A stretch of 64,000 bases of DNA. Origin: Candidatus Tectomicrobia bacterium (GTDB taxonomy: Bacteria > UBA8248). Location of the stretch: assembly GCA_016192135.1 (NCBI GenBank), contig JACPUR010000001.1:1-64000 (forward strand). Reading direction: 5' to 3'. The translations under genes were made by a program, and so were the position numbers. Shown here in pieces: positions 29,667-54,799 of this stretch. Each line of letters opens with the position of its first letter. Within the stretch, counting starts at the first letter, position 1. The notes beneath the pieces were generated by a model, which was not told the origin of the DNA, ran no database searches, and saw only the letters and a list, made by a program, of their open reading frames with translations.

Positions 29667-29724
29667 GATGTTTGTCTCCTCTCCTATTTCACGGGAGGGG
29701 TGGAGCGCGCGAGGGCTCAACAAG

Positions 29725-38496: not shown

Positions 38497-38513
38497 ACCC
38501 GGGCCGGAGGCAG

Positions 38514-39707
38514 ATGGCGGACCCGCTGGCCATCCACGGCGGCAAGGCCGTCCGCGAAAAGCTGCTCCCCTACGGCCGCCAGTCCGTCGACGAGGAGGAC
38601 ATCCTCGCCGTTGGTGAGGTGCTGCGCTCCGATTGGCTAACCACCGGCCCGAAGGTGGATGAGTTCGAGGAGGCATTCGCCGGGTATGTCGGCACCCGGC
38701 ACGCGGTGAGCTTCAGTTCCGGGACGGCGGCGCTCCACGGAGCGGTCTTCGCCGCGGACCTCGGGCCCGGGGACGAGGCGGTGACCACCCCGATTACATT
38801 CTGCGCGACGGCGAACTGCCTCCTCTACCAGGGCGCTTCGCCGGTCTTCGCCGACGTGAGCCCCGACACGCTGAACCTCGATCCTGACGGACTGACGCGC
38901 CGTATTACCCCTCGGACGAGGGCGATCCTCCCGGTGGACTATGCGGGCCATCCGGCGGACCTCGGGCCCATCATGGAGCTGGCCGGGCGGCACGGCCTGA
39001 CGGTCATCGAGGACGGATGCCACGCCCTGGGCGCCGAGCTGGGCGGGCGCCGGGTCGGCCGGCTGAGCCACATGACCGTATTCAGCTTCCACCCGGTCAA
39101 GCACCTCACCACCGGGGAAGGCGGGATGGTGGCGACGGACGACGAGCGTTTCGCCCGCCGGCTCCGCCTCTTCCGCAACCACGGGATCGACAGCGACGCC
39201 CGGGACCGCCAGTCCCGGGGCGAGTGGTTCTACGAGATGGTGGACCTCGGCTGGAACTACCGCCTGACCGACATCGGGTGCGCGCTTGGGCTGGTTCAGC
39301 TCCGGAAGCTGGACCGCAACCTGGCGCGGCGGCGGGAGATCGCGGCCGCCTACACTGAGGCGTTCCGGAAGATGGAGGGCATGGCTCCTCCTGCGGTCCG
39401 GCCGGGGGCGAATCCGGCTTGGCACCTCTATCCGGTGCGCATTGAGCCGGACAAGCTTGCCGTCGGCCGGCGGGAGATCTTCCGCGCCCTGCGGGCGGAG
39501 GGCCTGGGCGTGAACGTGCACTACATCCCGGTCCATCTCCACCCGTATTACCGGGACAAGCGGGGCCACCGGAAGGGGGAGTGCCCCGTCGCCGAGGACG
39601 CCTATGAGCGCCTGATCTCCCTGCCTATCTTCCACGGCATGACGGACCAGGACGCCGAAGACGTCGTGCATGCCATGGGCAAGGTGATGGAGCACTATGT
39701 CCGGTAG
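38514..39707 (+). CDS. pseC: UDP-4-amino-4,6-dideoxy-N-acetyl-beta-L-altrosamine transaminase, PseC
   Basis: This is a 397-residue DegT-type PLP enzyme. LLPYGRQSVDEEDILAVGEV and SDWLTTGPKVDEFE are characteristic of PseC. The PLP Lys is in FSFHPVKHLTTGEGGM, and GVNVHYIPVHLHPYYR closes the domain. It uses the PseB product and glutamate to make the 4-amino sugar. The ATG at 38514 has CGGAGG three bases ahead. The frame opens earlier inside pseB but that part has no similarity. Its 3' end overlaps the next gene by 11 bp. Confidence 0.93.
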   Translation: MADPLAIHGGKAVREKLLPYGRQSVDEEDILAVGEVLRSDWLTTGPKVDEFEEAFAGYVGTRHAVSFSSGTAALHGAVFAADLGPGDEAVTTPITFCATANCLLYQGASPVFADVSPDTLNLDPDGLTRRITPRTRAILPVDYAGHPADLGPIMELAGRHGLTVIEDGCHALGAELGGRRVGRLSHMTVFSFHPVKHLTTGEGGMVATDDERFARRLRLFRNHGIDSDARDRQSRGEWFYEMVDLGWNYRLTDIGCALGLVQLRKLDRNLARRREIAAAYTEAFRKMEGMAPPAVRPGANPAWHLYPVRIEPDKLAVGRREIFRALRAEGLGVNVHYIPVHLHPYYRDKRGHRKGECPVAEDAYERLISLPIFHGMTDQDAEDVVHAMGKVMEHYVR

Positions 39708-40701
39708 CCTCGCCCTTCGGTTTCTGGTCGCCGGCTGCGGGTCCGTCGGAAAGCGCCACCTCCGGAACCTTCGGACGCTCGGCGTGACGGACCTCCTGAC
39801 GTTCGATGTCCTGGCCGAGCGGTGCCGCGAGGCGTCGGCGGAGCTTGGCGTGGAGGCCGTGGCCAGCCTGGAGGAGGCTTGGGCGCGCGGGGTGGATGCC
39901 GTTCTGGTGACGGTCCCCACCCGTGAGCATTATCCGTTGGCGCTCGAGGCCGCGCGGCAGGGCTGTCACCTGTTCATCGAAAAGCCTCTGTCGGACCGCC
40001 TGGAGGGCCTGGACGCTCTGGCCGGGATCGCGGCGGAGAAGAGGCTCATCGCCCTGGTCGGCTGCAACATGCGCTTCCATCCCGGCCCCGCCGCCGTGAA
40101 GCGCCTCCTGGACGAGGGGGCCATCGGAGCCCCCGTTGCCGCCCGGCTCCAAACGGGCTCCTACCTGCCGGACTGGCGGCCAAGCGTGGATTACCGCCAG
40201 AGCTACAGCGCGTCGGCCGAGGGCGGGGGTGGCGCGGTCCTCGACTGCATCCACGAAATTGACCTGGCTCTCTGGTATTTCGGCCCGGCCGAGGTCGCGG
40301 GCGCCGCGGTTCTCCCGGCCGAGAGCCTCGGATTGGACGTGGACGGGCTGGCCGAAATGCTGCTCCGGCATCATTCAGGCGTGCTTTCGAGCGTCCATCT
40401 CAACTTCGTCCAGCGTGACTACCGGCGCGTCTGCCAGATCATCGGCACCGAGGGAACCCTGTACTGGGACTTCGAAGAAGAGGCCGTCCGGTGCTACCGC
40501 CCGAAGGAAGGATGGCAAGCGTTCCCCCAGCCGGCCGGGTGGGAGCTGAACCGGATGTACCTGGACGAGATGCGCCATTTTCTGGCCTGCCTCGTCGGCG
40601 AGGAGAAGCCCCATGTGGACGTGACCGGGGGGTGGCGTGCACTGGAAATCGCCCTGGCGGCGAAGGCCTGGCCCGGCGCGCGCCCGGTGGTGGGGGCATA
40701 G
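39697..40701 (+). CDS. Gfo/Idh/MocA-family oxidoreductase (first of three)
   Basis: This is a 334-residue NAD(P)-dependent oxidoreductase with the N-terminal loop LVAGCGSVGKRHLRNL. The family's catalytic Lys is in HLFIEKPLSD and the C-terminal domain has GGAVLDCIHEIDLALWYFG. The gene starts inside the end of pseC, so it belongs to the same operon. Oxidoreductases in nonulosonate clusters can oxidise a sugar hydroxyl or reduce a keto group. The substrate is not readable from sequence, but its place between PseC and the cytidylyltransferase suggests an extra step on the amino sugar. Confidence 0.85.
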   Translation: MSGSLALRFLVAGCGSVGKRHLRNLRTLGVTDLLTFDVLAERCREASAELGVEAVASLEEAWARGVDAVLVTVPTREHYPLALEAARQGCHLFIEKPLSDRLEGLDALAGIAAEKRLIALVGCNMRFHPGPAAVKRLLDEGAIGAPVAARLQTGSYLPDWRPSVDYRQSYSASAEGGGGAVLDCIHEIDLALWYFGPAEVAGAAVLPAESLGLDVDGLAEMLLRHHSGVLSSVHLNFVQRDYRRVCQIIGTEGTLYWDFEEEAVRCYRPKEGWQAFPQPAGWELNRMYLDEMRHFLACLVGEEKPHVDVTGGWRALEIALAAKAWPGARPVVGA

Positions 40702-40832: not shown

Positions 40833-41642
40833 ATGGCGGCGGAATTGAAGATAGGTGCCCTCGTTCCCGTCCGGCTTGCCTCGGAACGGCTACCCCGGAA
40901 GGCACTTCAGCCTATCGCTGGACGGCCGGTGATCGTGCATCTCTTGGATCGCTTCTGTGCGTCTAAATTCCTCGCACCCGAGCGGGTGGTGGTGTGCACT
41001 ACCGAGGAGCGGGAGGACGACCCGCTTGTGCCTGTTGCTGAGGCGGCCGGGGTATCCGTCTTTCGCGGCAGCCGGGACGATATCATCGACCGCTTCCACC
41101 GGGCAGTGGAGCACTTCGGCTTCGGCGCTGTCATCCAGGCGGATGGAGACGACCCGTGCACCGACCCCGCATACATGGACCTGTGCATGGAGCGCCTGCT
41201 GGCGGATCCCTCGCTGGATATCGTTTTCGGGGAGGAATTGCCCCTCGGGCTGGCCTCCAAGGCGATCCGGGCCTCCGCCATCCGGAAGGTCCGGGAGCAT
41301 TACCTGACGGAACGGAACGACACCGGCTTCATCTACTACTTCACCAAGACCGGGCTGTGCCGGGTGGACAAGGTTCGTCCCGTTTCCGAGGCGCACCGCC
41401 ACGAGACAGCCCGCCTGACCTTGGATTACCCGGAGGATCTGATGTTTTTTCAGGCTCTTTTCGACGAGCTCTATGAGGAGGGGAAGGTTTTCGGAGTTGG
41501 CGAGATCGTCGCATTGCTGCGCCGCAGGCCCGATCTTCTCGCGATCAATGCGGGGCTCGCTGAGCGCTACATGAAGCGAACGCGCGAATTGGCTCGGCTC
41601 GAGTACCGAGTGGATGGGCAGGTTCACAAGGTGCAGGTCTGA
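40833..41642 (+). CDS. SpsF-like acylneuraminate cytidylyltransferase family protein
   Basis: This is a 269-residue nucleotidyltransferase. The N-terminal nucleotide loop is IGALVPVRLASERLPRKALQPIAG. VVVCTTEEREDDPLVPVA and RGSRDDIIDRFHRAVEH with VIQADGDDP follow, the blocks of the SpsF/CMP-NeuAc-synthetase-like family. The ATG at 40833 has GGAGGAGG five to six bases ahead. It may activate the pseudaminate-type sugar (PseF role) or a precursor sugar phosphate as in GDP-sugar routes. A paralogue lies at 56676-57467. The frame runs in from an upstream fossil of another family member. Confidence 0.8.
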   Translation: MAAELKIGALVPVRLASERLPRKALQPIAGRPVIVHLLDRFCASKFLAPERVVVCTTEEREDDPLVPVAEAAGVSVFRGSRDDIIDRFHRAVEHFGFGAVIQADGDDPCTDPAYMDLCMERLLADPSLDIVFGEELPLGLASKAIRASAIRKVREHYLTERNDTGFIYYFTKTGLCRVDKVRPVSEAHRHETARLTLDYPEDLMFFQALFDELYEEGKVFGVGEIVALLRRRPDLLAINAGLAERYMKRTRELARLEYRVDGQVHKVQV

Positions 41643-42688
41643 TGCGCTACGGGGTGGTGGGTCTGGGCTCCATGGGCAGCCGGCGGGTGCGCTGTCTTGC
41701 GGCGCTGGGCCGCGAGGTTGTGGGGTTTGATATCCGTCCCGACCGGATGAGAAGCGCAGAGGAGCGGTTTGGCATCCGCACGGCGGAGAGTTTCGAGGCG
41801 ATGCTCCGGCTCGAACCAGAGGCCCTCGTGATCTCCACCCCTCCGGACCAACATTTGCCTTATTACGAACGCGCTTGCGCCCTGGGGCTTCCGTATTTCA
41901 GCGAGGCAAGCATCTTCGTCCCCCGAGCGGAATGGTTCGCCACCCGCGAGAAGGAAAAGGGAGCCAAGGGCTATCCCTCGGCAACGTGGCGGTTCTACCC
42001 TTGGCTGCGTGAGCTCCACCGGCAGCTCCGGCACGAGGGGCGGCCTCGTGTGCATACGGTCCACTACGCCTACGGAGGTTTTCTGCCCCGCTGGCACCCC
42101 TGGGAGCCTTACGAAGACTTCTACGCCGGCCGCGAGCGCAAGACCTGCGCTGCCCGGGAGACGGTTCCCTTCGATCTCGAGTGGCTATGCTGGATCTTCG
42201 GCCCGGTGCGGGCGGTCTCCTGCGCGTATGGACGGACGGCGGAGTGGCGGACCGACATCGACGATACCTATCTCCTCCTGCTCGAGTTCGAATCGGGATT
42301 GCTCGGAACGATGACGGCCGAACTGCATCAGGTCGCCCCGTTCCGCAGCGCCCGGGTGGGCTGCGAGGGGATGAGCTTCGAGCTCGATTTCACGACCCAC
42401 AAATTGCGTACTTGGGGGCAGGAGGAGGCGCAAGGGCGCATACTGAAGCCTGCGGAATCGGAGGGGTCCGAGAATTTCGACTTCGAGCGGGTCTACATGG
42501 CCGAGTCGAGCGCCTTCGTCGATGCGATGGAGGGCCGTTCAACCTACCCCAAGACGTGGGTTGAGGAGCGGCATCTTTCCAATGTCCTCTACGCGGCGGA
42601 GGAGAGCTGGCGCCGGAGGGCATGGGTGGATGTAGCCGAAGCTGAGAGCGCCCACGACGGATGTTCGTGGATAGAGGTGGATAGCTGA
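41642..42688 (+). CDS. Gfo/Idh/MocA-family oxidoreductase (second)
   Basis: This is a 348-residue protein with the cofactor loop YGVVGLGSMGSRRVRCL and the acid ending the second strand (VVGFDIRPDR). The catalytic Lys position is a Ser here: YFSEASIFVPR replaces the usual EKP. Oxidoreductase activity may therefore be altered or lost. The C-terminal half has the beta-sheet of the family (LLLLEFESGLLGTMTAEL). The ATG shares a base with the preceding stop (TGATG). It could be a dedicated keto-reductase or a non-catalytic partner of the first member. Confidence 0.8.
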   Translation: MRYGVVGLGSMGSRRVRCLAALGREVVGFDIRPDRMRSAEERFGIRTAESFEAMLRLEPEALVISTPPDQHLPYYERACALGLPYFSEASIFVPRAEWFATREKEKGAKGYPSATWRFYPWLRELHRQLRHEGRPRVHTVHYAYGGFLPRWHPWEPYEDFYAGRERKTCAARETVPFDLEWLCWIFGPVRAVSCAYGRTAEWRTDIDDTYLLLLEFESGLLGTMTAELHQVAPFRSARVGCEGMSFELDFTTHKLRTWGQEEAQGRILKPAESEGSENFDFERVYMAESSAFVDAMEGRSTYPKTWVEERHLSNVLYAAEESWRRRAWVDVAEAESAHDGCSWIEVDS

Positions 42689-42754: not shown

Positions 42755-44149
42755 TTGCGATTGCTTGACCAGGAGCCTGCCTTGGGGAATCTCAACGCCG
42801 CGGCGATCCGCAACGAGGGTTACTACAAGTCGCTGGCCGCGGAGCCGCCCATCCCTCCGCGCGATCGGAGCCTGGCCCGCTCCCTCGCGCTGAAGGCGAA
42901 GGCTGAGTCGCTCATCCCCTCCTGCTCGCAGACCTTCAGCAAGGGGCCGACCCAGTTCGTGCAGGGGGTAGCGCCGGTGTTCCTTGCCCGCGGCAAGGGG
43001 AGCCGGGTGTGGGACGTGGACGGAAACGAGTACATCGATTTCCCCATGGCCCTCGGCGCCATCATTCTGGGGCACGGCTACCCCGCCGTGGACGAGGCGG
43101 TTAGGCGCCAGATGGAGGAGGGGAGCACCTTTTCCCTCCCCCATCCCCTCGAGGTGGAGCTCGCCGAGCTTCTCACCGGGGTCATCCCCGGCGCGGAGAT
43201 GGTACGGTTCGGCAAGAATGGCTCGGACGCAACCTCCGGGGCGGTGCGAGTCGCCCGCGCGGTCACGGGGCGGGAGGTGATCGCCTGCTGCGGCTACCAC
43301 GGCTGGCAGGACTGGTACATCGGGACGACCACCCGATCCAAGGGCGTGCCGAAGACGGTCCGGGAGCTGACCGTCCCCTTCGAGTACAACTCGCTGGAGG
43401 GCCTCGAGTGGATTTTCGAGGCGCATCCCGGCCAAGTGGCCGCGGTCGTCATGGAGCCGGTCGGGGTGGTGGAGCCGCGGGAGGGTTTCCTGGCGGCTGT
43501 GCGCGACCTCGCCCGGCGGGAGGGGGCGCTCCTCGTCTTCGACGAGATCGTCACGGGCTTCCGGGTGGCCCTGGGCGGGGCCGCGGCGCACTACGGCGTG
43601 ACGCCCGACCTCACGTGCATCGGCAAGGCCATGGCGAACGGATTCCCCATCTCGGCGGTCGTGGGACGGCGGGAGATCATGGAGGCGTTCGACGAGATCT
43701 TCTTCTCCTTCACCTTCGGCGGCGAGGCGCTCTCCCTGGCGGCGGCCCTCGCAACGATCCGCGAGATCCAGGACAAGGGCGTGATCCCCTACCTGTGGGG
43801 CCAGGGACGGAAGCTGAAGGATGGCTACAACGCCCTGGCGAGGGAGTACGGCATCGAACGCTTCACCCAATGCATCGGTATCCCGCCACGCACCGTCATG
43901 ACGTTCCGGGACGAAGCAGGAGCGGAGTCACTTCTCTTCAAGAGCCTCTTCCAGCAGGAGTGCCTCAAGCGGGGGGTGCTCTACTCCGGCGGCCAGAACA
44001 TGTGCTTCAGCCACACGGAGGAAGACATCGAGCACACCCTGCGGGCCTACCGGGCGGCGATGGAGGTACTGGCCGCGGCCATCGAGCGCGGCGACGCGCG
44101 CAGCCGGCTGGAGGGAGAGCCCGTGCAGCCCGTCTTCCGGAGGGCCTAG
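42755..44149 (+). CDS. Class III aminotransferase (GSA-aminotransferase-like)
   Basis: This 464-residue PLP enzyme resembles glutamate-1-semialdehyde aminomutases. It has GKGSRVWDVDGNEYIDFPMALGAIILGH, the GSDATSGAVRVAR cofactor block, LLVFDEIVTGFRVALGG with the conserved Asp, and the PLP Lys in LTCIGKAMANGFP. A TTG at 42755 opens the frame; the true start may be further in. It is not a member of the known pseudaminate pathway, so it may add an extra amino group or make an unusual amino-acyl donor. The end overlaps the next gene by one base. Confidence 0.88.
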   Translation: MRLLDQEPALGNLNAAAIRNEGYYKSLAAEPPIPPRDRSLARSLALKAKAESLIPSCSQTFSKGPTQFVQGVAPVFLARGKGSRVWDVDGNEYIDFPMALGAIILGHGYPAVDEAVRRQMEEGSTFSLPHPLEVELAELLTGVIPGAEMVRFGKNGSDATSGAVRVARAVTGREVIACCGYHGWQDWYIGTTTRSKGVPKTVRELTVPFEYNSLEGLEWIFEAHPGQVAAVVMEPVGVVEPREGFLAAVRDLARREGALLVFDEIVTGFRVALGGAAAHYGVTPDLTCIGKAMANGFPISAVVGRREIMEAFDEIFFSFTFGGEALSLAAALATIREIQDKGVIPYLWGQGRKLKDGYNALAREYGIERFTQCIGIPPRTVMTFRDEAGAESLLFKSLFQQECLKRGVLYSGGQNMCFSHTEEDIEHTLRAYRAAMEVLAAAIERGDARSRLEGEPVQPVFRRA

Positions 44150-45207
44150 TGGGCGTCCTGTCGGGCATTATCGAGGTGGGCGGCCGCCGCATCGGCGCGG
44201 GGGAGCCCTGCTTCGTCATCGCCGAGGCGGGCAGCAACCACAACGGGAGCCTGGAGAAGGCCCGGGAGCTCGTCGAGACCGCCGCCTCGGCCGGCGCCGA
44301 CGCCGTGAAATTCCAGGTGTTCCGGGCCGAGCGTCTCTACCCCAAGAGCGCGGGGCTGAGCGGCTACCTGAAGCTGAGCAAGCCCATCTACGACATCATC
44401 GCCGAGATGGAGATGCCGCTCGGCTGGCTCCCCGTTCTGAGTGATCTCTGCCGCGAGAGGAGGATCCAGTTCCTGGCCTCGGCCTTCGACGAGGAGTCGG
44501 CCGACCGGCTCGACCCCTACACCCACGCCTTCAAGGTCGCCTCCTACGAGATGACGCACATTCCGCTCATCCGGCACTTGGCCCGGAAGGGGAAGCCCCT
44601 CATCATTTCGACCGGGACGGCCTGCCTCGACGAGGTGGCCGAGACGGTGGAGGAGGTCCGCGCGGCGGGCCGTGCGCCGCTGGCCCTGATGCAGTGCACC
44701 GGGGCCTACCCGGCCCCGCTTGAGTCTCTCAACGTGCGGGCCATCCCCACCATGAAGTCCGCCTTCGGGGTTCCGGTCGGGCTCTCCGACCACTCGCGCG
44801 ATCCCTTGGTCGGCCCGCTCGCGGCGGTCGCCGTGGGGGGGAGCCTTCTGGAGAAGCACTTCACCCTGAGCAACGACCTCCCCGGCCCCGACCACCGCTT
44901 CGCGGTGGAGCCCGGCGAGCTGCGCCTGATGGTCCGGAAGGTGCGCGAGACGGAGCGGGCGCTGGGGAGCGGCGAGAAGGTGGTGGACCCGGCCGAGGAG
45001 GAGCTGCGGAGCTTCGCCCGGCGGAGCGTCTTCTCCCTGCGGGCAATCGCGGCGGGCGAGTTGCTCTCCCTGGGGAACATCGCCGTTCTGCGCTGCGGAA
45101 ACCTCCCCGCCGGGGTGGAGCCCAGGCGCCTGGGTGAGATCCTGGGGAAGCGCGCCTCGCGCGCCATCCCGGCCGAGCAGGCCCTCCGGGAGGGGGACTA
45201 TGTCTGA
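44149..45207 (+). CDS. pseI: Nonulosonate (pseudaminate-type) synthase, PseI/NeuB family
   Basis: This 352-residue aldolase-like synthase condenses a hexosamine with phosphoenolpyruvate. The TIM barrel shows FVIAEAGSNHNGSLEKA, DAVKFQVFRAERLYP, LIISTGTACLDEV, MQCTGAYPAP, VPVGLSDHSRDP and the metal-binding SLLEKHFTLSNDLPGPDHRFAVEP. The C-terminal ~60 residues form the SAF/antifreeze-like domain (SVFSLRAIAAGELLS). The GTG start overlaps the stop of the preceding gene (TAGTG). PseH and PseG directly downstream point to pseudaminic acid. A second synthase is fused to a cytidylyltransferase at 60874. Confidence 0.9.
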   Translation: MGVLSGIIEVGGRRIGAGEPCFVIAEAGSNHNGSLEKARELVETAASAGADAVKFQVFRAERLYPKSAGLSGYLKLSKPIYDIIAEMEMPLGWLPVLSDLCRERRIQFLASAFDEESADRLDPYTHAFKVASYEMTHIPLIRHLARKGKPLIISTGTACLDEVAETVEEVRAAGRAPLALMQCTGAYPAPLESLNVRAIPTMKSAFGVPVGLSDHSRDPLVGPLAAVAVGGSLLEKHFTLSNDLPGPDHRFAVEPGELRLMVRKVRETERALGSGEKVVDPAEEELRSFARRSVFSLRAIAAGELLSLGNIAVLRCGNLPAGVEPRRLGEILGKRASRAIPAEQALREGDYV

Positions 45208-45679
45208 GGCCGGCATCCGCCTGCGCCCCGCCGGCCCGGCGGACTCCCGCCTCCTCTGGGAGCTGCGGAACGAGGACTCGGTCCGCCGGGCGTCCTTCCA
45301 CCCGAAGGCGATCCCGATCGAGGAGCACGAGCGGTGGTTCGCCCGAAAGATGGGCGACGCCCGCTTCCGCGCCTTCGTCGCGGTGGACCCTGCGGGGAAG
45401 GACGTCGGCTACGTCCGCTTCGACCTCGATGGCGAGGAGGCCGAGATCAGCGTGGCGATCGACAAGGGGGAGCGCGGGAAGGGCTACGGCCTCGCGGCCA
45501 TCCGCGCGGGGTCGGAGCGGATGCTGGCGGAGGGCCCGGCCCGCCGCGTCATCGCCCTCGTCCGCCGCGACAACCCCGCCTCCCTCGCCGCCTTCGAGCG
45601 CGCGGGCTACCGGGCGGCGGGCGGGAAATCCCTCCAGGGCGTTGAGGGCATCGTGCTGGTGTTCGGCGATGGCGGCTAG
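45200..45679 (+). CDS. pseH: GNAT N-acetyltransferase, PseH-like
   Basis: This is a 159-residue GNAT with IRLRPAGPADSRLLWELRNEDSVRRASF, the acetyl-CoA loop GERGKGYGLAAIRAG and ALVRRDNPASLAAFERAGYRA. PseH puts the acetyl group on the 4-amino nitrogen of the altrosamine intermediate. The ATG at 45200 lies within the last bases of the synthase gene and has GGGGG upstream. The gene ends inside the start of the PseG-like gene, so the three form one translated block. Confidence 0.85.
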   Translation: MSEAGIRLRPAGPADSRLLWELRNEDSVRRASFHPKAIPIEEHERWFARKMGDARFRAFVAVDPAGKDVGYVRFDLDGEEAEISVAIDKGERGKGYGLAAIRAGSERMLAEGPARRVIALVRRDNPASLAAFERAGYRAAGGKSLQGVEGIVLVFGDGG

Positions 45680-46772
45680 GGCCGGCTCGGCCCGCCGCGG
45701 CGGGGTGCTCATCCGGGCGGATGCCGGGCCTGGGGTCGGCCTGGGCCATCTCCAGCGGTGCCTCTCGCTCGCGGAAGCCCTCCGGCGCGGCGGCGCGGAG
45801 TGCGCGTTCGTGCTGAACGAGAGGGCCGGGGCGGCCGGGCGCGTCGAGGCCGCGGGTTTCGAGGCCCCCGAGGCCGCGGGGGCGCCGTCGTGGTCCGGTG
45901 CAGACATGGAGAGGACGATCGGCCTCGCCGCCCAGCGAGGATGCACTGCCGCCGTCGTTGACGGCTACGGCGCGGGGCCAGACTTCCTGCGCGGCCTCCG
46001 GGAGGGCGGGCTCTATGTCGCAGCCGTCGATGACCTCTGCCGGGAGCTCTTCCCCTGCCAGCTCGCCGTCAACGGCGGGGTGCACGCGAAAGAACTCCGG
46101 CCCCAGTCCTCCACGGGAGACACGGCGTTCCTGTTCGGTCCGGAGTATGCGCTGATCCGGCCGGAGCTCTGGAACGTACCCGCCCGCGCGGTGCGGGCGG
46201 AAGTTTCTTCCATTTTGCTCACCTTGGGGGGGACGGATGATTTTAATCTGATGCCAGTCCTCCTCCGCGCCCTGGACGCGCTTCCCGGGGTCTTCGCCGT
46301 GACGGCGATCCTCGGCACCTACTTCACGGATGGGGAGGCAATCCTTCGGGCGGCCGCCGAATGCGGGAAGAAGGTCCGCCTCGTGGAGAGCCCGACCTCT
46401 GTCCGGGACCTCATGCTCGGGGCCGACCTCGCGGTCTCGGCGGGCGGGCAGACGCTCTATGAGCTCGCGGTGGCGGGCACCCCGGCCGTCGCGATCCAGC
46501 TCGCGGAGAACCAGGCGGGGCAGCTGCGGGGCTTCGCCGGGGCCGGGTTTGCCCGCCTCGCGGGGGTGGCGGGCCGGGACGACGTCGTGGCCGGGGTGCG
46601 GGAGCAGGTCCTGCCCCTCCTGGCGGATGCCGCCGCGCGGGAGGCCATGGCGGCCGCCGGCCGGGCGCTGATCGACGGGAGAGGGGCGATCCGCGTGGCG
46701 GAGAGGATCCTCGGGGAGGTGTCCCCAGCGGCCGGGCGCCCCATTCCTTCCCGGCAGGGGGCGGTGGGGTGA
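45669..46772 (+). CDS. pseG: PseG-like UDP-sugar hydrolase
   Basis: This 367-residue GT-B-like hydrolase has the PseG opening VLIRADAGPGVGLGHLQRCLSLAEAL and LAVNGGVHAKEL. FLFGPEYALIRPEL, ILLTLGGTDDFN and the nucleotide-binding DLAVSAGGQTLYELAVAGTPAV follow. PseG cleaves UDP from the diacetamido-trideoxy-altropyranose to give the synthase substrate. The ATG at 45669 overlaps the preceding stop. The end overlaps the next GTG start by 4 bp (GTGA). Confidence 0.9.
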   Translation: MAARAGSARRGGVLIRADAGPGVGLGHLQRCLSLAEALRRGGAECAFVLNERAGAAGRVEAAGFEAPEAAGAPSWSGADMERTIGLAAQRGCTAAVVDGYGAGPDFLRGLREGGLYVAAVDDLCRELFPCQLAVNGGVHAKELRPQSSTGDTAFLFGPEYALIRPELWNVPARAVRAEVSSILLTLGGTDDFNLMPVLLRALDALPGVFAVTAILGTYFTDGEAILRAAAECGKKVRLVESPTSVRDLMLGADLAVSAGGQTLYELAVAGTPAVAIQLAENQAGQLRGFAGAGFARLAGVAGRDDVVAGVREQVLPLLADAAAREAMAAAGRALIDGRGAIRVAERILGEVSPAAGRPIPSRQGAVG

Positions 46773-48670
46773 AGCGGCTCATCCTCACGCGGCTCGACCC
46801 GGTGGCCGAGGACGGGCGGGCGGTTCACTTGGGCCCCTGGTCCCTGTCGGAGGCGGAGCACCGGAGCGGCGCCTGGAGCCGGTACGGATTCCAGCGGCCC
46901 TTGCCGAGCGAGGCCGTCGCCGGGACCGCTTCGGCCTTGGAGGCCGTCTCCGAGTATCTCCTGGCGGGCCTCCGCGAGGAGCTGAACGCGCGGCACCGGA
47001 CGAATCGCTCGATCCGGTTTTGGCGCATCCTCCTGATGCCGTGGCTCATCTGGCTGGCGATGTGTGTTTTCGAGCGGTATTTGCGGCTTCGCGGCCGCGC
47101 GGGAGAGGGCATCCCCTACGAGGTCTTCCTCTCCCCCCCGGGGGAGCGCCTACCGCTCGATTCCACGCGGCACTTCAGGAACCTCCTTCAGGACGATTCC
47201 CTGAACCGACTGGTCCTCACCCGGATCATTGAGGACCTGCGCCCCCCCGGGTGGGTCCTGAGGCCGGGGCCGCCCGCCGCGCCCGAGGGCGGCCTGGTGT
47301 CCGTGAACCGGCGGCGGAAGCTCGCTCTCGTCCACTGGGCCTCCCTGCTCGCCTCCAACCTAGGGCGGGTCCAGTTCTGCATGGTGTACGGGATGACCCT
47401 CTGGGACACGGCGGCGCTCGCCCTTCGCCTCGCGCTCCGGCCCGGCCGTAAGCTGGAAAGCGGGTCCGCGGGGCTCCGCTGGCAGTCGCCCCCCGTCCCG
47501 TCTCGTACGGAGGCGGCCGAAGGGCTCGAATCCGCCGCCGGACTGGCCGGGGGGGAGGGGGAGCGGTTCCTGCGCATCCTCGAAGGCCTCTCCAAGGAGA
47601 CGTTGCCTAAGACATTCGCCGAGGATTTTCCCCGAGAGGTCCGGCTCGCCCGCGCGAAGCTCGCCCTCACGGCTCCCTGGACGCGCGCGATTGTGTGCGG
47701 CCCCGCCCTCGGGGCGGACGACGAGGCCAAGTTTTACATCGCTCACATGGTGGAGCTCCGGGGGGCGGCGCTGATCGGCCACCAGCACGGCGGCAACTAC
47801 GGCCTCATGGAAACGTTCACCTACGTGAACCAGACCGAGTACCAGACGTGCGACCGGTACCTCTCTTGGGGCTGGGAGGCGCAGTCGGGGTACCCCCTCC
47901 GGGCGGTGCCTGCCGCCTCCCCCCTCCTCTCCAAGCTCCGGCGGGGCGGGGAGCGGAACGGGAGCCTCCTGCTCGTCACGAACGAGCCGCCGCTCTACAC
48001 CCAGGATATCTCCTCCAACCTCTTCCCCGAAGATGTCGAGAAATACAGGGAGGACCAGGCGGTGTTTGTCCATGCCCTGGAAGAGGGCCCCAGGGCGTCG
48101 CTGGTGTACCGCCCCTACATGAGCCGGCTCGGCCGCGTCTACGGCGAGGCGTTCATGCGGGAGCGTTTCCCCGGCCTCCAGTTGTTCAAGGGCACCCTTT
48201 CCCGGAACCGGAAGGGCTGGCTCTCCCCCTTCGTCGCTGGGTGCCGGGCGTGCGTCGTGGACCACCCGGGGACGACCGCCGCCATGACCCTCGCCGCCCG
48301 CATCCCGACCGTCCTGTTCTGGGACGAGGACGTGTGGCGGACCCAGGGGGAGCAGAAGCGGGCGCTCGACGGCCTCCGGGCGGCGGGCGTCTTCCACGGG
48401 ACGCCCGAGTCGGCGGCCCGGCACCTGAACGCCGTCTGGCCCGATGTCGAGGCGTGGTGGGGCGATCCCCGCAGCCGGGAGGCGGTGGATCGGTTCGCCC
48501 ACAGCTACTGCCGGTCGAACCCGGGGTGGATGAAGGAATGGGAGGCGCTCCTCGCCTCGCCGGACTCGCCCCTGTGGAGCGGTCTTGGCGGAAGCCAGGA
48601 GGCGGGCCGCGTCCGGAGCGGGGAGGGGGAGAAGGAGCTAGCCGGCGGCGGGGCGCGCCGGCGGGCCTGA
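46769..48670 (+). CDS. LIC12162-like putative transferase (GT-B type)
   Basis: This 633-residue protein begins KRLILTRLDPVAEDG followed by VHLGPWSLSEAEH. The centre carries RAIVCGPALGADDEAKFY, then ELRGAALIGHQHGGNYGLMETF. The QHGG-x-YG block and opening strand resemble the LIC12162 family of surface-sugar transferases first noted in Leptospira. The second half has NEPPLY, YRPYM and a nucleotide-binding-like stretch ending DHPGTTAAMTLAARIPTVLFW. It probably transfers a nonulosonate or other sugar to a surface acceptor. The family call is from memory of the motif and is moderate. Confidence 0.6.
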   Translation: MKRLILTRLDPVAEDGRAVHLGPWSLSEAEHRSGAWSRYGFQRPLPSEAVAGTASALEAVSEYLLAGLREELNARHRTNRSIRFWRILLMPWLIWLAMCVFERYLRLRGRAGEGIPYEVFLSPPGERLPLDSTRHFRNLLQDDSLNRLVLTRIIEDLRPPGWVLRPGPPAAPEGGLVSVNRRRKLALVHWASLLASNLGRVQFCMVYGMTLWDTAALALRLALRPGRKLESGSAGLRWQSPPVPSRTEAAEGLESAAGLAGGEGERFLRILEGLSKETLPKTFAEDFPREVRLARAKLALTAPWTRAIVCGPALGADDEAKFYIAHMVELRGAALIGHQHGGNYGLMETFTYVNQTEYQTCDRYLSWGWEAQSGYPLRAVPAASPLLSKLRRGGERNGSLLLVTNEPPLYTQDISSNLFPEDVEKYREDQAVFVHALEEGPRASLVYRPYMSRLGRVYGEAFMRERFPGLQLFKGTLSRNRKGWLSPFVAGCRACVVDHPGTTAAMTLAARIPTVLFWDEDVWRTQGEQKRALDGLRAAGVFHGTPESAARHLNAVWPDVEAWWGDPRSREAVDRFAHSYCRSNPGWMKEWEALLASPDSPLWSGLGGSQEAGRVRSGEGEKELAGGGARRRA

Positions 48671-48709
48671 TGTCCGGTTCGGGGCAGGGCACACGAGCGG
48701 AGGAGGGTG

Positions 48710-49987
48710 ATGCGGATTTCCCTGACCAAGGACATCTTCGGGAAGGTCGAGGTCCCTGAGGGCCGCCTCGCCGGCGCCTACGGCCCCCGCCGGCCGGAGC
48801 GTCCCGGCCTAGAGGATGGGGATCTCCGGGACCGGATCCACAACCCCATCGGCACGCCCCCGCTCCGGGAGATGGCGCGCGGGGCCCGGAGGGTCCTCAT
48901 CGTAACGGACGACATCACGCGCCAGACCCCCCTCTACCGCGTCCTGCCCCTCATTCTGGAGGAGTTGGCGGAGGCCGGGGTTCCGGAGAGCGGGGTCCGC
49001 TTCCTGATTGGGCTGGGGACGCACCGGGGGATGACGGAGGAGGAGATCGCCGTGAAGTTCGGCGAGGCCATCCCCAAGCGGTTCCCGGTCGTGAACCACG
49101 CCTGGGACGATCCCTCCGCCCTGGTTTCCATGGGCCGGAGCGGGCTCGGCTTCGAGGTGATGATCAACCGGCTGGCGCTGGAGACCGACCTCCTCATCGG
49201 GGTGGGGAGCATCATCCCGCACGCGACGGCGGGCTTCTCCGGCGGGGGCAAGAGCATCATGCCGGGAATCTGCGGTGAGGCCACCATCGAGGCGACCCAC
49301 TGGGCGGCCCTCGGTTACGAGATGTCGGAGATCCTCGGGAACTTCGACAACAAGGTCCGCGAGGCCGCGGTGCAGGTCTGCCGGAAGGCGGGGCTGCGCT
49401 TTATCGTGAACACGGTGATGTGCGAGGGCGGGCGGGTCTATGGCCTGGTCGCGGGCGACGTCGAGGAGGCCCACCGGGCCGGGGTGCGGCTTTCGCTCGA
49501 AGTGTACGGCGTGCCGGTCGCCGGGACGGCCGACGTCGTGATCGCCGAGGCCTATCCGACCGACATCGATCTGCGGCAGGCGATCAAGGCCGTCTGCTCG
49601 GCCGACATCGTCTGCCGGGACGGCGGGGTCGTCATCCTTCCGGCGGAATGCCGGGAGGGGGTCTCGCCGCAGTTCCCGGATTTCTCGCGCTACGGGTTCC
49701 GGGAGCCGGAGGCGCTCTACCGGGCGGTCGAGGCGGGGGAATTCCGCCAGAAGCTGCTCGCCTACACCCTCGTGGCCATCGGGCGGATCATCTCCCGGCG
49801 GGTGAAGGGGATGCTCGTCTCGCCCCATATCGGCGAGGCGGAGGCCGCGCGCATGGGTTTCCTCTGGGCCCCGACCCTCCAGGCGGCGGTGGACCGCGCG
49901 CTGGAGATGTGCGGCCCCCGCTCCCGGGCGATGGTCCTGCGGGAGGCCGGGGAGATCCTTCCCCTGGTCCCCGCCTCCGTCCCTTGA
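48710..49987 (+). CDS. larA: LarA-type nickel-dependent racemase/epimerase homologue
   Basis: This is a 425-residue protein of the LarA family. The key residues of the Lactiplantibacillus enzyme (His108, His174, Lys184, His200) all have counterparts three positions earlier: His105 in GLGTHRGM, His171 and Lys181 in IPHATAGFSGGGKSIMPG, and His197 in EATHWAA. Lys184 carries the pincer cofactor in the known enzyme, so a functional site is likely. The family racemises lactate and epimerises other 2-hydroxyacids, including sugar-derived ones. No cofactor-making larB, larC or larE is seen in the window. AGGAGG precedes the ATG at 48710. Its presence in a nonulosonate operon is unexpected. Confidence 0.85.
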   Translation: MRISLTKDIFGKVEVPEGRLAGAYGPRRPERPGLEDGDLRDRIHNPIGTPPLREMARGARRVLIVTDDITRQTPLYRVLPLILEELAEAGVPESGVRFLIGLGTHRGMTEEEIAVKFGEAIPKRFPVVNHAWDDPSALVSMGRSGLGFEVMINRLALETDLLIGVGSIIPHATAGFSGGGKSIMPGICGEATIEATHWAALGYEMSEILGNFDNKVREAAVQVCRKAGLRFIVNTVMCEGGRVYGLVAGDVEEAHRAGVRLSLEVYGVPVAGTADVVIAEAYPTDIDLRQAIKAVCSADIVCRDGGVVILPAECREGVSPQFPDFSRYGFREPEALYRAVEAGEFRQKLLAYTLVAIGRIISRRVKGMLVSPHIGEAEAARMGFLWAPTLQAAVDRALEMCGPRSRAMVLREAGEILPLVPASVP

Positions 49988-50014: not shown

Positions 50015-52042
50015 GTGAGAATGCTGTTCTTCGAGTCCTATTCGATCCTGCAGATCGTTTTTTTGTGGCGGGCGATCCGCCGCGCCCGGCGGATCTGCTT
50101 CCACGAGAAAATCTATCCTCCGCTGCGCCGGAGGTTCCGCCTCCCCCGGCACGAGGCCATCTGCCGGGCGCTCATCCGGCTGATCAACCGGGAGGTCGAG
50201 TTCGTCCGCCCGCCGGAGGAGTTGCTGCTCCGGCACAACTGGGAGATGAACAAGCGCGCCATCCCTGTTACGGACCGGATGGAGGAGATCCTCTCCGGAA
50301 CCGGCGCCTGCCGGGCGCTGCACTCCCTGCTCAAGGATGATGCGCTCGTCCGCTTCTTCCAGGGCCTCTATGTGAGCCACGCGGCCGAGCGCCTGATGTT
50401 CTACGCGGTGGGGAGCTCCCTCCGCGCGGAGGATAAGGGTTGGGTGCTGGTACCCGCCTGGAACGGGGGGGACCGCTACGCGGCCGAGGTGGAGGGCGGG
50501 GCGGAGGCGGCGCGCCATTCGGCGGAGGTCTCCTTCGTCAACGGCCTCCGGGAGGCGGTCCGGAAGCTGCTGATCTTGACTGCGGCCCTCGCTTATCCCC
50601 TGATTTTCGTCCTCTCCCGCCTCATCCGGGGGAAGGTGGCGCTGCGCCCGCCCCGGCGGCGGGAATATGACGTGCTGCAGCCCGTCCTCTGGGGAATCTT
50701 CGAGGCCGGCTCCGGCCGGATGATCTCCGGCACCAAGAAGGCCCAGGACGACAGCTACCTCCAGTGCGAGCGCCTCTCCCCGGATCGCATTCTTTATCTC
50801 TTCCGAAAGTGGAGAAGGAGCCTTGAAGAGGAGGCGGACCTCAAGGCGAAGATGGCGCGCAACGGCTGGCCGTTCGCCGACAGCCGCGACTTCGTCCTCA
50901 CCCCGTCGTTCCTGAGATACGCCCTCCGGGTCCAGTGGTGCGCGCTCCGGCTCCTGGCGGGGGGGCTCGCGGGGGGGGACGGCGCCGGCATGTGCGAGTC
51001 GGGGGCGCTCGCGGTCCGGGCGATCCTCCACAAGCGGCTCGAGATCGAGAACGTCGCCTGCAAGGTCGAGTTCGTGCGGGATGACTACAACGCGGGCCAT
51101 GTGATCGAAACGATCCTCAACAACCGCGCCGGCCGGCTCTCGATCGGCATCCAGCACCACATGAACGCCTGGGACTACCCGGCGCTCTCCTACGTCCACT
51201 TCGACAAGTACATCGTCTACGGCGACCTGACGGCCCGCACCTTCCGGCCCCACTGGGACCGCCTGGATCTGCAGAAGACCGGGCGGGAGAACATCGACTG
51301 GGCCGTCTCCCTCGTCCGGGACCGGGAGGCGGTGGAGCGGATCGCCGAGAGGCTCGACGCGCTCTACGGCAAAAGGCGCGCCCGCGTGCTTTTCGTCCTC
51401 CCCACTCGCAGGCCCCTGAACCGCCGGAAGAAATGGGACGAGCTTTACGCGGCGCTGGAATGGCTCACCCAATCCGAGCTGGAAATTCAGGTGTTCCTTC
51501 GCTTCCGGAGCCTCTCGGACCTCGAGGCTTCCCGCCTCGCGCGCTTCCGCGGCCTGGCCGGACGGGATCCCCGCGTCATCATCGACCAGGAGAACTTCAC
51601 CACCCAGGAGCTCATGGCCGCGGTGGACGTGACCGTGGGCAACACGGTCTCCTTCTCCATCTGGGAAGCGGCGGCCGCCGGGCGGAAGGTATTTTCCTTC
51701 GACATGATCGGCGTTACCCCCTATTATTTCGCCGGCTATGGAAAGGACTTCGTCCTGACGGGCGAGGAAGCGCTGCGCGCCCTTTTTCGCGCCGCCGTGG
51801 AAGGCCTCGCGGGCCTCGACGTCCGCTGGGAGGACCTGGCGCGGGATTGCAACTACCATGCCGACGGCGGGAACCTCCGGCGGATCCAGGAGGTCGTCGT
51901 GGAAGGGGTCGCGGAGGTGAACGGCGCCGGCGAGGGCCGGCGCGCCGCCGCGCATTCGGGTGGCGAGGGGGCCGAGCCTACGCAGGCCGCTCCGGCGGAG
52001 GAGCTTCGCCCCCGCCCTTTCCCCGCCAAGACCCAGCGCTAA
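50015..52042 (+). CDS. Large GT-B-like surface-carbohydrate protein, unknown function
   Basis: The 675-residue protein begins FFESYSILQIVFLWRAIRRA. It has a hydrophobic stretch near residue 190 (LLILTAALAYPLIFVLSRLI). The C-terminal half has features of GT-B folds: LSIGIQHHMNAWD, YIVYGDLTARTFRPHW, ARVLFVLPTRRPLN and VTVGNTVSFSIWEAAAAGRKVFSFDM. The last is like the nucleotide-sugar loop of CDP-glycerol and sialyltransferase-type enzymes. No family could be named with certainty. It follows larA by 27 bp and precedes the amidotransferase genes. The last ~40 residues are low complexity. It may be a nonulosonate transferase or polymer modifier. Confidence 0.55.
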   Translation: MRMLFFESYSILQIVFLWRAIRRARRICFHEKIYPPLRRRFRLPRHEAICRALIRLINREVEFVRPPEELLLRHNWEMNKRAIPVTDRMEEILSGTGACRALHSLLKDDALVRFFQGLYVSHAAERLMFYAVGSSLRAEDKGWVLVPAWNGGDRYAAEVEGGAEAARHSAEVSFVNGLREAVRKLLILTAALAYPLIFVLSRLIRGKVALRPPRRREYDVLQPVLWGIFEAGSGRMISGTKKAQDDSYLQCERLSPDRILYLFRKWRRSLEEEADLKAKMARNGWPFADSRDFVLTPSFLRYALRVQWCALRLLAGGLAGGDGAGMCESGALAVRAILHKRLEIENVACKVEFVRDDYNAGHVIETILNNRAGRLSIGIQHHMNAWDYPALSYVHFDKYIVYGDLTARTFRPHWDRLDLQKTGRENIDWAVSLVRDREAVERIAERLDALYGKRRARVLFVLPTRRPLNRRKKWDELYAALEWLTQSELEIQVFLRFRSLSDLEASRLARFRGLAGRDPRVIIDQENFTTQELMAAVDVTVGNTVSFSIWEAAAAGRKVFSFDMIGVTPYYFAGYGKDFVLTGEEALRALFRAAVEGLAGLDVRWEDLARDCNYHADGGNLRRIQEVVVEGVAEVNGAGEGRRAAAHSGGEGAEPTQAAPAEELRPRPFPAKTQR

Positions 52043-52058: not shown

Positions 52059-53174
52059 ATGCAGTTCTGCAAGCGATGTTTGGTCCCCACGACGCGCCCG
52101 GGCATTACGTTCGACGCGGAAGGCATCTGCTTCCCGTGCCGGGTGGCGGAGAGGCACGAGGCGATCGACTGGGACGCCCGGCGCAAGGAGCTCGAGAAGA
52201 TCGCCGAATGGGGGCGGGCCAACAGCCGGTGCGACTACGATTGCCTAATCGGGGTGAGCGGCGGCAAGGACAGCACCCGCCAGGCCCTCTTCGCGCGGGA
52301 CGATCTGGGCCTCCGGCCCCTGCTGGTCTGCTGCACCTATCCCCCAGAGCAGCAGAGCGACCTCGGGGCCTACAACCTCAACAACCTGATCTCGCTCGGC
52401 TTCGACACGATGGTGGTGGGGCCTTCGCCGGAGAAGTGGAAGCGGCTGATGCGGAAGGCCTTCTTCAAGTACGGGAACTGGGCGAAGCCGACCGAGATGG
52501 CCCTCTACGCCATCCCCCCGCGGATCGCGATCGCCTACGGCATCCCCCTGATTTTCCTGGGGGAGAACAACGCCCTGGCGTCCGGGGACCTCGGCGGGTC
52601 GCATACGGGCGATGCCAACCGGATCAAGTACAACAACACCCTCTCCGGCGGGGACCCGAGCGAGTTCCTGGGGGACGGGATCGCCGAGAACGACATCTAC
52701 TGGCACACCTTCCCCTCCGACGAGGAGATGGCCCGGGCGAACATCCGGATCGTCTACATGGGCTACTACATCATGGACTTCGACCCCTTCGTGAACACGG
52801 AGATCGCCAAGGCGCACGGCCTGAGGGCCCGCGACGTGAAGGAAGAGGACATCGGCGCGCTGAACCTGAACGAGGACCTCGATGAGGATTTGGTCCACGT
52901 CAACCAGATGCTGAAGTTCATGAAACTCGGCTTCGCCCGGGCGACGGACGATGCCTGCCAGATGATCCGGCGCGGCCTCCTCACCCGGGAGGAAGGCGCC
53001 GATCTCGTCCGCCGGTACGACGGGAGATGCGCCGACCGCTACGTGAGGATGTTCTGCGATTACCTGGGGATCACCGTGGAAGAGTTCTGGCGCCATGCGG
53101 AGAAGTTCCGGAACCCGGACATCTGGGAGAAGAACGGCACGGGGGAGTGGCGGCTCAAGCATCCGGTCGAATGA
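52059..53174 (+). CDS. N-acetyl sugar amidotransferase (WbpG/PseA-like), first copy
   Basis: This is a 371-residue enzyme with a four-Cys N-terminal zinc-ribbon-like motif (Cys4, Cys7, Cys24, Cys27), typical of the family. The canonical ATP PP-loop is VSGGKDSTRQ (residues 66-75). WbpG/PseA-type enzymes use ATP and ammonia to turn an acetamido group into an acetamidino group on a sugar. Ammonia comes from HisH and HisF paralogues, which follow directly. All key residues are present, so this copy should be active. Confidence 0.88.
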   Translation: MQFCKRCLVPTTRPGITFDAEGICFPCRVAERHEAIDWDARRKELEKIAEWGRANSRCDYDCLIGVSGGKDSTRQALFARDDLGLRPLLVCCTYPPEQQSDLGAYNLNNLISLGFDTMVVGPSPEKWKRLMRKAFFKYGNWAKPTEMALYAIPPRIAIAYGIPLIFLGENNALASGDLGGSHTGDANRIKYNNTLSGGDPSEFLGDGIAENDIYWHTFPSDEEMARANIRIVYMGYYIMDFDPFVNTEIAKAHGLRARDVKEEDIGALNLNEDLDEDLVHVNQMLKFMKLGFARATDDACQMIRRGLLTREEGADLVRRYDGRCADRYVRMFCDYLGITVEEFWRHAEKFRNPDIWEKNGTGEWRLKHPVE

Positions 53175-53196
53175 TCGAACACTGAGGAAGCACGGA

Positions 53197-53895
53197 GTGG
53201 AAAAGAAGAAAATAGCCATCGTCAACTACGGCCTCGGCAATCTCCAGTCCGTGGAGAACGCGGTGCGGTACTTGGGCGTGGAGGCGGTCCAGGTGGCGCG
53301 GAAGGAGGAGTTCGAGGAGGCGGACGGGTACATCCTTCCCGGCGTCGGGGCCTTCGGCGAGGCCATGAAGCGGCTGAGCCGCTCCGGGATGATCCCCTCG
53401 ATCGAGAAGGAGGTGCTCGGGCGGCGGAAGCCCTTCCTGGGCATCTGCCTCGGGATGCAGCTCATCGCGATAGAGTCCTGCGAGAACGGCCGGCACAAGG
53501 GCCTGGGCTGGTTTCCGGGCCGGGTGAACCAGCTCGCATCGAGCGACCAATGGCGGCTGCCGCACGTGGGGTGGAACGAGGTCGAGGTGAGGCGGGAGTC
53601 GCCGCTGCTCCGCAAGGTGAAAAGCGGCTCCACCTTTTACTTCGACCACAGCTACGCCCTGGAATGCGACCCGCAGTTCGTCTCGGCGACGTGCGAGTAC
53701 AGCCAGTCCGTGGTCTCCGTCATCCAGAAGGACAACATGTGGGGCACCCAGTTCCATCCGGAGAAGAGCCAGAAGAACGGGCTGCGGGTGCTCTGGAACT
53801 TCATCGGCCAGTTGGGCGGCGGCGCGAACGGAGCGGGCGGATTGAACGGGGAGGCCCGCCGCCCCGGCTTCATCCTCCCGCAGGCGGGGCCTTAG
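53197..53895 (+). CDS. hisH: HisH-like glutamine amidotransferase subunit
   Basis: This is a 232-residue class I glutaminase with the triad intact: Cys84 in FLGICLGMQ, and His187 and Glu189 in GTQFHPEKS. The oxyanion strand is YILPGVGAFGEAM. I start at the GTG at 53197. The protein matches the ~200-residue HisH plus a short C-terminal tail rich in Gly and Asn. In this setting, between two amidotransferases and next to HisF, it should supply ammonia for sugar amidination, not for histidine synthesis. Confidence 0.88.
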   Translation: MEKKKIAIVNYGLGNLQSVENAVRYLGVEAVQVARKEEFEEADGYILPGVGAFGEAMKRLSRSGMIPSIEKEVLGRRKPFLGICLGMQLIAIESCENGRHKGLGWFPGRVNQLASSDQWRLPHVGWNEVEVRRESPLLRKVKSGSTFYFDHSYALECDPQFVSATCEYSQSVVSVIQKDNMWGTQFHPEKSQKNGLRVLWNFIGQLGGGANGAGGLNGEARRPGFILPQAGP

Positions 53896-53926
53896 GGCTC
53901 ACGAACGGGGCGGGGCGGTTATCACA

Positions 53927-54799
53927 ATGCTGAAAAAGCGGATTATCGGGTGTCTCATCGTCCGGGACGGCATCGTCGTCCAGAGCATCAATTTCCGGTC
54001 CTATCTCCCGGTCGGGAGGCCGAAGATCGCGGTCGAGTACCTCAACCGCTGGAGCATCGACGAGATCGCCGTCCTCGACATCACGGCCGGGCGGAACGGG
54101 GACGGGCCGAATGTCCGGCTCGTGAAGGAGGTCTCGGACCGGTGCTTCGTTCCCCTGACCGCCGGCGGCGGGATCCGCAGCCTCCGCCACGTCGAGATGC
54201 TCATCCAGGGAGGCGCCGACAAGATCAGCGTGAACACGGCGGCGCTGGAGACCCCGGAGCTGATCACCGAGGTTGCCAATGCCTTCGGGAGCCAGTCGGT
54301 CATCGTCTCGATCGACGCCGTATCCGACGGGCGGGGCGGGCACCGGGTCTGGTCGTTCCGCGAGCGCCGGGCGCTCGACGCCACCCCGGTCGAGCATGCC
54401 CGCCGGGCGGAGGGCCGAGGGGCGGGGGAGATCCTCCTGAACTCGGTGGATCGGGACGGCTCGAAGGCCGGCTACGACATCGGCCTCGTCGGAGAGCTCG
54501 CCTCGAAGGTGGGAATTCCGGTGATCGCCCTGGGCGGAGCGGGGCATCCGCGGCACTTCGCCGAAGTGTTCCAGAAGACCGCCGCCGCGGCCGCCGCGGC
54601 CGCCAACTACTTCCATTTTACCGAGCACAGCGTCATCACGACCAAATCGTTCCTGGAGAGGGACGGCTTGGGCGTCCGCCTCGACGGGGAAGTGAACTAT
54701 CAGGACTCGGGGTTCGCCCGCACGGGCCGGATCCGGAAGAAGGACGACCTCGTCCTGGATGAGCTGCGGTTCGTCCCGGTGGAGCCCGACGAGCTATGA
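53927..54799 (+). CDS. hisF: HisF-like barrel subunit with catalytic Asp11 replaced
   Basis: This is a 290-residue HisF-type barrel. KRIIGCLIVRDG aligns with the usual KRIIxCLDVxDG, so the catalytic Asp11 is Ile here. Asp130 is kept (VIVSIDAVSDG), as are phosphate-binding blocks (TAGGGIRS, KISVNTAAL, NSVDRDGSKAGYD). It is about 37 residues longer than usual at the C-terminus, ending VNYQDSGFARTGRIRKKDD. Loss of Asp11 argues against imidazole-glycerol-phosphate chemistry and for an ammonia-channel role with HisH. The end overlaps the next start as ATGA. Confidence 0.85.
   Translation: MLKKRIIGCLIVRDGIVVQSINFRSYLPVGRPKIAVEYLNRWSIDEIAVLDITAGRNGDGPNVRLVKEVSDRCFVPLTAGGGIRSLRHVEMLIQGGADKISVNTAALETPELITEVANAFGSQSVIVSIDAVSDGRGGHRVWSFRERRALDATPVEHARRAEGRGAGEILLNSVDRDGSKAGYDIGLVGELASKVGIPVIALGGAGHPRHFAEVFQKTAAAAAAAANYFHFTEHSVITTKSFLERDGLGVRLDGEVNYQDSGFARTGRIRKKDDLVLDELRFVPVEPDEL

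Follow-up and report, generated by a model that had tools for sequence, protein, structure and literature searches.

A predicted LarA-family racemase or epimerase is linked to a putative second nonulosonate module in a surface-glycan locus of Candidatus Tectomicrobia

The LarA superfamily (LarA, Mar1/2, Hgr, Plr, GntE) comprises nickel-pincer-nucleotide (NPN) enzymes whose known work concerns free hydroxy acids and sugar acids (published work is cited throughout from partial texts). Here we describe a LarA homologue encoded in a surface-glycan locus of a Candidatus Tectomicrobia bacterium (GenBank assembly GCA_016192135.1, contig JACPUR010000001.1, positions 1 to 64,000; this whole stretch of 64,000 nucleotides is the window hereafter). 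The closest described glycans are O-polysaccharides: that of Flexibacter maritimus carries both an 8-amino-5,7-di-N-acyl nonulosonate and a 2-hydroxyglutaryl amide, the hydroxyglutaryl group being given as both S and R, and malyl amides occur in those of Pseudoalteromonas and Shewanella (PMC3210612). These natural products carry both kinds of decoration that the window genes would explain, but they belong to other organisms and appear in the available text as structures without named genes. Among gene clusters, the O-antigen locus of Legionella pneumophila serogroup 6, in which a homologue of glutamate-1-semialdehyde (GSA) aminomutase has already been annotated, shares with the window this homologue together with PseG-like, acylneuraminate cytidylyltransferase, HisF and HisH genes, whereas LarA is not mentioned in the accessible part of the report (PMC3694923). 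No report of a link between LarA and nonulosonates was found in the literature searched, coverage of which was thin for subscription papers; of the LarA-family papers, the available text of PMC7583248 mentions neither neuraminate nor polysaccharide, and that of PMC11770544 neither of these nor sialic.

The link between LarA and nonulosonate genes is real and conserved: the enzyme family is an ordinary one, but its setting is unusual. Neighbourhoods were compared in 18 genomes of the phylum, all from one family (the bacterium's own genome, seven genomes of a sister genus, and others), and in a wider sample of 386 genomes. A PF09861 protein is present in 9 of the 18, once in each: in the own genome, in all seven of the sister genus and in G017. 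The sister-genus copies are 65-69% identical to the window LarA (five aligned); that of G017 is distant (38%) and lies beside an ABC transporter and catabolic-looking genes (L033). In 7/7 sister-genus genomes the genes run in the order LIC12162-family transferase, LarA, cytidylyltransferase::NeuB fusion and GT2::cytidylyltransferase, although in G005 the order is split over two contigs, with the C-terminus of LarA just before the fusion, and in G004 the junction contains unresolved bases. At each of the five clean junctions the LarA stop codon overlaps the start codon of the fusion (GTGA or TTGA). PseB, PseC, the class III aminotransferase, GNAT and PseG gave no match in the sister-genus LarA flanks read (E 1e-6, seven genomes). 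The LIC12162 and LarA genes are adjacent in all eight genomes with a close LarA, separated in the window by 36 bases. LIC12162 is thus the constant partner of LarA, with the NeuB fusion also lying within the locus in 8/8. The fusion is found in all eight of these genomes against 9/18 overall (hypergeometric 0.0002, by genome), but the overlapping codons and the retention of LarA beside LIC12162 through rearrangement constitute a stronger argument than the statistics.

Outside the phylum, five LarA relatives were recovered from the 386-genome sample; NeuB or Pse genes were matched in none of their five available stretches, and GT2 in one. A contig scan with LarA returned eight distant Brachybacterium loci (28-35% identity), and a plasmid search five records, the best 33.6% identical; the NeuB fusion gave four plasmid records, none reaching 80% query coverage. 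Within the genomes sampled, the link was not found beyond a small lineage of two genera. A first-pass annotation of the window had called for a survey of larA next to NeuB-type genes and had allowed that the two might meet by chance: the arrangement proved to be conserved in a second genus but in 0/5 relatives outside the phylum, and retention of the LIC12162-LarA pair in all eight genomes speaks for more than chance.

The gene itself is confirmed as a LarA homologue. The protein matches both Lar_N and LarA_C (Table 1), and the four active-site residues named in the annotation are present, each numbered one higher (His106, His172, Lys182 and His198) since the reading frame opens GTG-ATG and is counted from the GTG. 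They align with His108, His174, Lys184 and His200 of Lactobacillus plantarum LarA, whose Asp72, Arg75, Gln295 and Lys298 likewise have identical counterparts; roles in catalysis or NPN binding are described for all of these residues other than Gln295 (PMC7583248; also PMC11623692). An AlphaFold2 model (pLDDT 87.3) matched LarA chains at Foldseek ranks 1-10 (E 2.6e-37; TM 0.83-0.91). The own genome holds this single LarA, and the check for cofactor genes asked for in the annotation, which had counted their absence as a refutation of its idea, returned larE, larB and larC over cut-off together on one of its contigs (C24), with LarC found in 8/8 genomes carrying a close LarA. The presence of these genes supports the prediction of a working LarA enzyme. 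Thus, in domains, predicted fold, catalytic and cofactor residues and genomic larB, larC and larE, the protein resembles the LarA superfamily, from whose described members it differs in its unmet subfamily cut-offs, in the loop after the second catalytic histidine and the Tyr294 position, both discussed below, and in an operon that includes a nonulosonate synthase.

At a probability of roughly 0.55, we propose that the window is part of a large locus for surface glycans that holds two nonulosonate modules, and that LarA acts on a 2-hydroxy acid destined for the glycan. Module A (PseB, PseC, two Gfo/Idh oxidoreductases, a cytidylyltransferase, the aminotransferase, NeuB, GNAT and PseG) would lead to a pseudaminic-type acid, to which its oxidoreductase-aminotransferase set would most likely add a further amino group. 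Module B (LIC12162, LarA, the cytidylyltransferase::NeuB fusion and GT2::cytidylyltransferase) would make and transfer a second nonulosonate. Because the sister-genus LarA adjoins LIC12162 and the NeuB fusion without Pse genes in its flanks, LarA is most likely a dedicated step of this second nonulosonate or glycan module, setting the configuration of the 2-hydroxy acid. As a putative NPN enzyme, it would invert C2 by proton-coupled hydride transfer. The inverted acid would then enter the same glycan as an N-acyl group (malyl-, 2-hydroxyglutaryl-, lactyl- or glyceryl-like) or, alternatively, serve as a linker that is glycosylated and set in place by the GT-B transferase next door. That an NPN enzyme is a dedicated step of glycan assembly, with the inverted acid glycosylated by LIC12162 or attached to a nonulosonate, we hold tentatively, at a little under even odds. 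If true, it would extend NPN enzymes to surface-glycan biosynthesis, provide a genetic handle on decorations of the D/L-malyl or 2-hydroxyglutaryl type so far described as structures without genes, and point towards surface decorations of a new kind.

Several observations weigh against this proposal. No gene was identified that would activate a 2-hydroxyacyl group or attach it. In the window itself, LarA and the NeuB fusion stand some 11 kb apart, separated by WbuX, HisH and HisF genes followed by a GNAT-cytidylyltransferase-Gfo/Idh-DegT block, and G010, of a third genus, holds the fusion and its block with no LarA detected. Because block and fusion occur in G010 without LarA, and LIC12162, LarA and fusion occur together in the sister genus, the window locus looks as though two arrangements had been combined in it. 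The linkage was seen in only two genera of one family, and shared ancestry limits its statistics: counted by genus, LarA accompanies two of three fusion-bearing genera, with a chance of 0.2. Finally, LarC is also present in five relatives with no detected LarA-family protein (G001, G011, G014, G015 and G016), while G017 has its distant LarA and no LarC match. The cofactor genes are therefore not specific to the close LarA, and the idea that larB, larC and larE are kept solely for the window enzyme was rejected on the same grounds. As a separate observation, LarC in these five relatives may mean either that sequence is missing or that something else there uses the nickel-pincer cofactor.

The substrate clues bear on what else LarA could be. 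It falls below the cut-off of every named NCBIfam subfamily: lactate (267.3/460), LarAH5 (216.1/462), malate racemase LarAH6 (288/500), LarAH10 (257.3/540), LarAH14/15/16 (82.2/740) and hexonate LarAH18 (71.7/500); two sister-genus LarA proteins scanned did likewise. The highest of these scores, for malate racemase, would suit an ordinary malate- or lactate-type metabolic enzyme that came to lie in a glycan operon by accident and serves central metabolism, as would its being the genome's sole LarA and the catabolic-looking setting of the distant copy from the same family in G017. Nonetheless, the unmet cut-offs, the stop/start overlap with the NeuB fusion and the retention beside LIC12162 in two genera speak against such a role. 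So does the loop after the second catalytic histidine, which is reported to contact the substrate side chain (PMC11623692, PMC7583248): it is Phe-Phe in LarA, Tyr-Lys in Mar2 (Tyr172-Lys173, thought to bind malate), Glu-Ser in GntE2 and Ala-Thr in the window protein. We consider the metabolic explanation unlikely, though the likeliest of the alternatives. In place of Tyr294, the window LarA and five aligned sister-genus LarAs have Arg, which the four others aligned do not. From these positions we infer a substrate side chain that is polar or bigger than the one in lactate, a description that acids of the malyl or 2-hydroxyglutaryl type would suit.

The small Ala173-Thr174 loop would also leave space for a bigger substrate such as an aldonic or similar sugar acid, and hexonates are substrates of the family members GntE1 and GntE2 (PMC7583248). 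LarA could then be a C2 epimerase, like the gluconate 2-epimerases, that supplies a precursor of a glycan residue with no acyl substituent involved. The low hexonate epimerase score and a loop unlike Glu-Ser make this improbable, as does a locus in which no pathway consuming aldonic acids was identified. Still less credible is the proposal of the first-pass annotation that aminotransferase and LarA together form a single branch added to the pseudaminic pathway. Some 4.5 kb separate the two genes, which share a strand of the window, yet the aminotransferase occurs without LarA in all 16 loci read (from 18 matches outside the own genome), and LarA without the aminotransferase in the seven sister-genus genomes. 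The chemistry put forward in the annotation has natural precedents for both of its decorations and may hold; its assignment of LarA to the pseudaminic route fails, the sister-genus LarA sitting in the other module.

Table 1. Features of the surface-glycan locus. Profile searches of the translated window proteins used Pfam (PF), NCBIfam (TIGR and others) and PHROG; scores are bits/cut-off.
Feature	Coordinates	Strand	Evidence
PseB, UDP-GlcNAc 4,6-dehydratase (inverting)	37501..38496	+	TIGR03589 491.2/407.75
PseC-type aminotransferase (start approximate)	38514..39707	+	TIGR03588 468.3/423.5
Gfo/Idh/MocA oxidoreductase 1	39697..40701	+	PF01408 65.6/24
Cytidylyltransferase, CTP_transf_3 (start approximate)	40833..41642	+	PF02348 68.3/22.6; PseF model 19.9/205.7
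Gfo/Idh/MocA oxidoreductase 2	41642..42688	+	PF01408 32.7/24
Class III GSA-type aminotransferase	42755..44149	+	PF00202 187.7/30.5; pyridoxal phosphate lysine ~Lys291
NeuB-family nonulosonate synthase, SpsE-like (start approximate)	44152..45207	+	PF03102 254.5/22.1
GNAT acetyltransferase in PseH position	45200..45679	+	PF13302 58.8/25.4; PseH 22.7/93.1
PseG-type UDP-sugar hydrolase (start approximate)	45669..46772	+	TIGR03590 155.5/153.55
LIC12162-family transferase, predicted GT-B fold	46769..48670	+	TIGR04331 308.1/225
LarA homologue, predicted NPN 2-hydroxyacid racemase/epimerase	48707..49987	+	PF09861 187.7/23.3; PF21113 33.4/25
675-aa protein, no family match	50015..52042	+	Pfam, NCBIfam, PHROG at 0.001
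WbuX-type N-acetyl sugar amidotransferase 1	52059..53174	+	TIGR03573 316.2/203.2
HisH-like glutaminase	53191..53895	+	TIGR01855 222.4/105.4
HisF/WbuZ-like partner	53927..54799	+	TIGR03572 259.9/299.7; PF00977 183.9/23.6
WbuX-type N-acetyl sugar amidotransferase 2	54796..56046	+	TIGR03573 325.6/203.2
GNAT, cytidylyltransferase, Gfo/Idh, DegT aminotransferase genes (second block)	56104..59732	+	same block found in G010 (L059)
Cytidylyltransferase::NeuB fusion (start approximate)	60850..62466	+	PF03102 246/22.1; PF02348 58.8/22.6
GT2::cytidylyltransferase fusion	62506..63903	+	PF00535 97.3/23.3; PF02348 32.6/22.6

Module A had been described as a pseudaminic acid pathway, with PseB, PseC, PseI, PseH and PseG in order within 42755-49987. 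The order on the forward strand holds, but PseB and PseC lie outside that span (37501-39707) and the identities of PseI and PseH were not upheld. Only PseB, PseC and, narrowly, PseG pass their NCBIfam cut-offs. The gene taken for PseI falls below the equivalog cut-offs of both PseI (275.8/340.25) and NeuB_NnaB (315.6/399.65), and its nearest PDB entry is SpsE (1vli; 285.6 bits against 179.6 for PseI); the GNAT in the PseH position misses the PseH cut-off, and neither the first nor the second cytidylyltransferase (33/205.7 for the latter) reaches that of PseF. Accordingly, since synthase, GNAT and cytidylyltransferases are below cut-off and the synthase is SpsE-like, "pseudaminic-type" appears a fair label for the UDP-sugar steps of module A and does not fix the final acid. 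The window thus resembles the described route (PseB-PseC-PseH-PseG-PseI-PseF) in carrying PseB, PseC and PseG in one gene run, and departs from it in these three components; it also carries two Gfo/Idh genes and a class III aminotransferase that the route lacks. Both oxidoreductases and one cytidylyltransferase occupy the interval between PseC and that aminotransferase. The annotation also made no mention of the LIC12162 gene, located between those of PseG and LarA, or of the second nonulosonate block at 52-64 kb.

The GSA-type class III aminotransferase was correctly recognised in the annotation. It keeps the pyridoxal phosphate lysine in alignments, does not reach the cut-offs of HemL (282.9/527.3) or PRK06209 (455/486), and, past the conserved YHG motif, has a segment that falls several residues short of its counterpart in GSA aminomutases. 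At E 1e-90, relatives were found in 17/386 genomes. A NeuB match was found near the gene in 6 of the 16 loci read, including those of all four closest relatives (49-56% identical), one of which, L101, combines PseB, PseC, Gfo/Idh, cytidylyltransferase, aminotransferase, PseG, GNAT and NeuB. The aminotransferase was also matched in 11 phage records and 39 plasmid records; of four plasmid regions opened, a NeuB-family gene lay near one (Methylomagnum) and not the other three. With NeuB near 1/4 plasmid regions and 6/16 genome loci, the family as a whole has no nonulosonate specificity. The window aminotransferase, however, is part of a separate nonulosonate gene set that recurs in distant, unrelated genomes, as judged from its four best relatives and the Legionella locus.

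This aminotransferase plausibly adds an amino group to the nonulosonate. Placing the group at C8 is a guess by analogy, since 8-amino nonulosonates are known (PMC3210612) and C8 of pseudaminic acid is remodelled through epimerisation by EpaA/EpaB (PMC12053666). The EpaA/EpaB system is similar in combining a CTP_transf_3 domain with an oxidoreductase that alters a nonulosonate at C8, but its enzymes are an aldo-keto reductase and a short-chain dehydrogenase/reductase with no aminotransferase, whereas those of the window are of the Gfo/Idh type (PMC12053666, as far as its available text goes). Gfo/Idh, cytidylyltransferase and class III aminotransferase together offer a testable gene set for amino-nonulosonates, for example of the 8-amino type.

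LIC12162-family proteins (TIGR04331) were found in 13/386 genomes: the own genome, the seven of the sister genus and five others. In 5/5 of these other loci a NeuB match lies within about 11 kb, and none has a LarA match; the proximity of NeuB suggests that LIC12162 is a family of nonulosonate transferases. A model of the window protein (pLDDT 80.3) matched GT-B structures (best Z 11.0, root-mean-square deviation 3.9, 256 aligned). The match is generic, and since many different GT-B entries score near Z 10, it reveals neither donor nor acceptor; an alignment profile searched against PDB sequences gave no credible match. We would naturally take the protein for a glycosyltransferase linked to nonulosonates.

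In the second nonulosonate block, the NeuB part of the cytidylyltransferase fusion has GSGH and NHM where the window's other NeuB has GPDH and NHN, and the acceptor sugars of the two may differ. Two WbuX amidotransferases flank a single HisH/HisF pair (52059-56046), so that a single source of ammonia may serve two modifications of the acetamidino type; compared with the acetamidino-forming WbuX/HisH/WbuZ system, WbuX (twice) and HisH are over cut-off while the WbuZ counterpart scores 259.9/299.7. The proteins at 50015-52042 and 59732-60877, which had no match in the three profile collections, may be glycosyltransferases. Elsewhere in the window, a 747-aa protein on the reverse strand (27591-29834) looks by eye like a fusion of a formyltransferase with a radical SAM domain.

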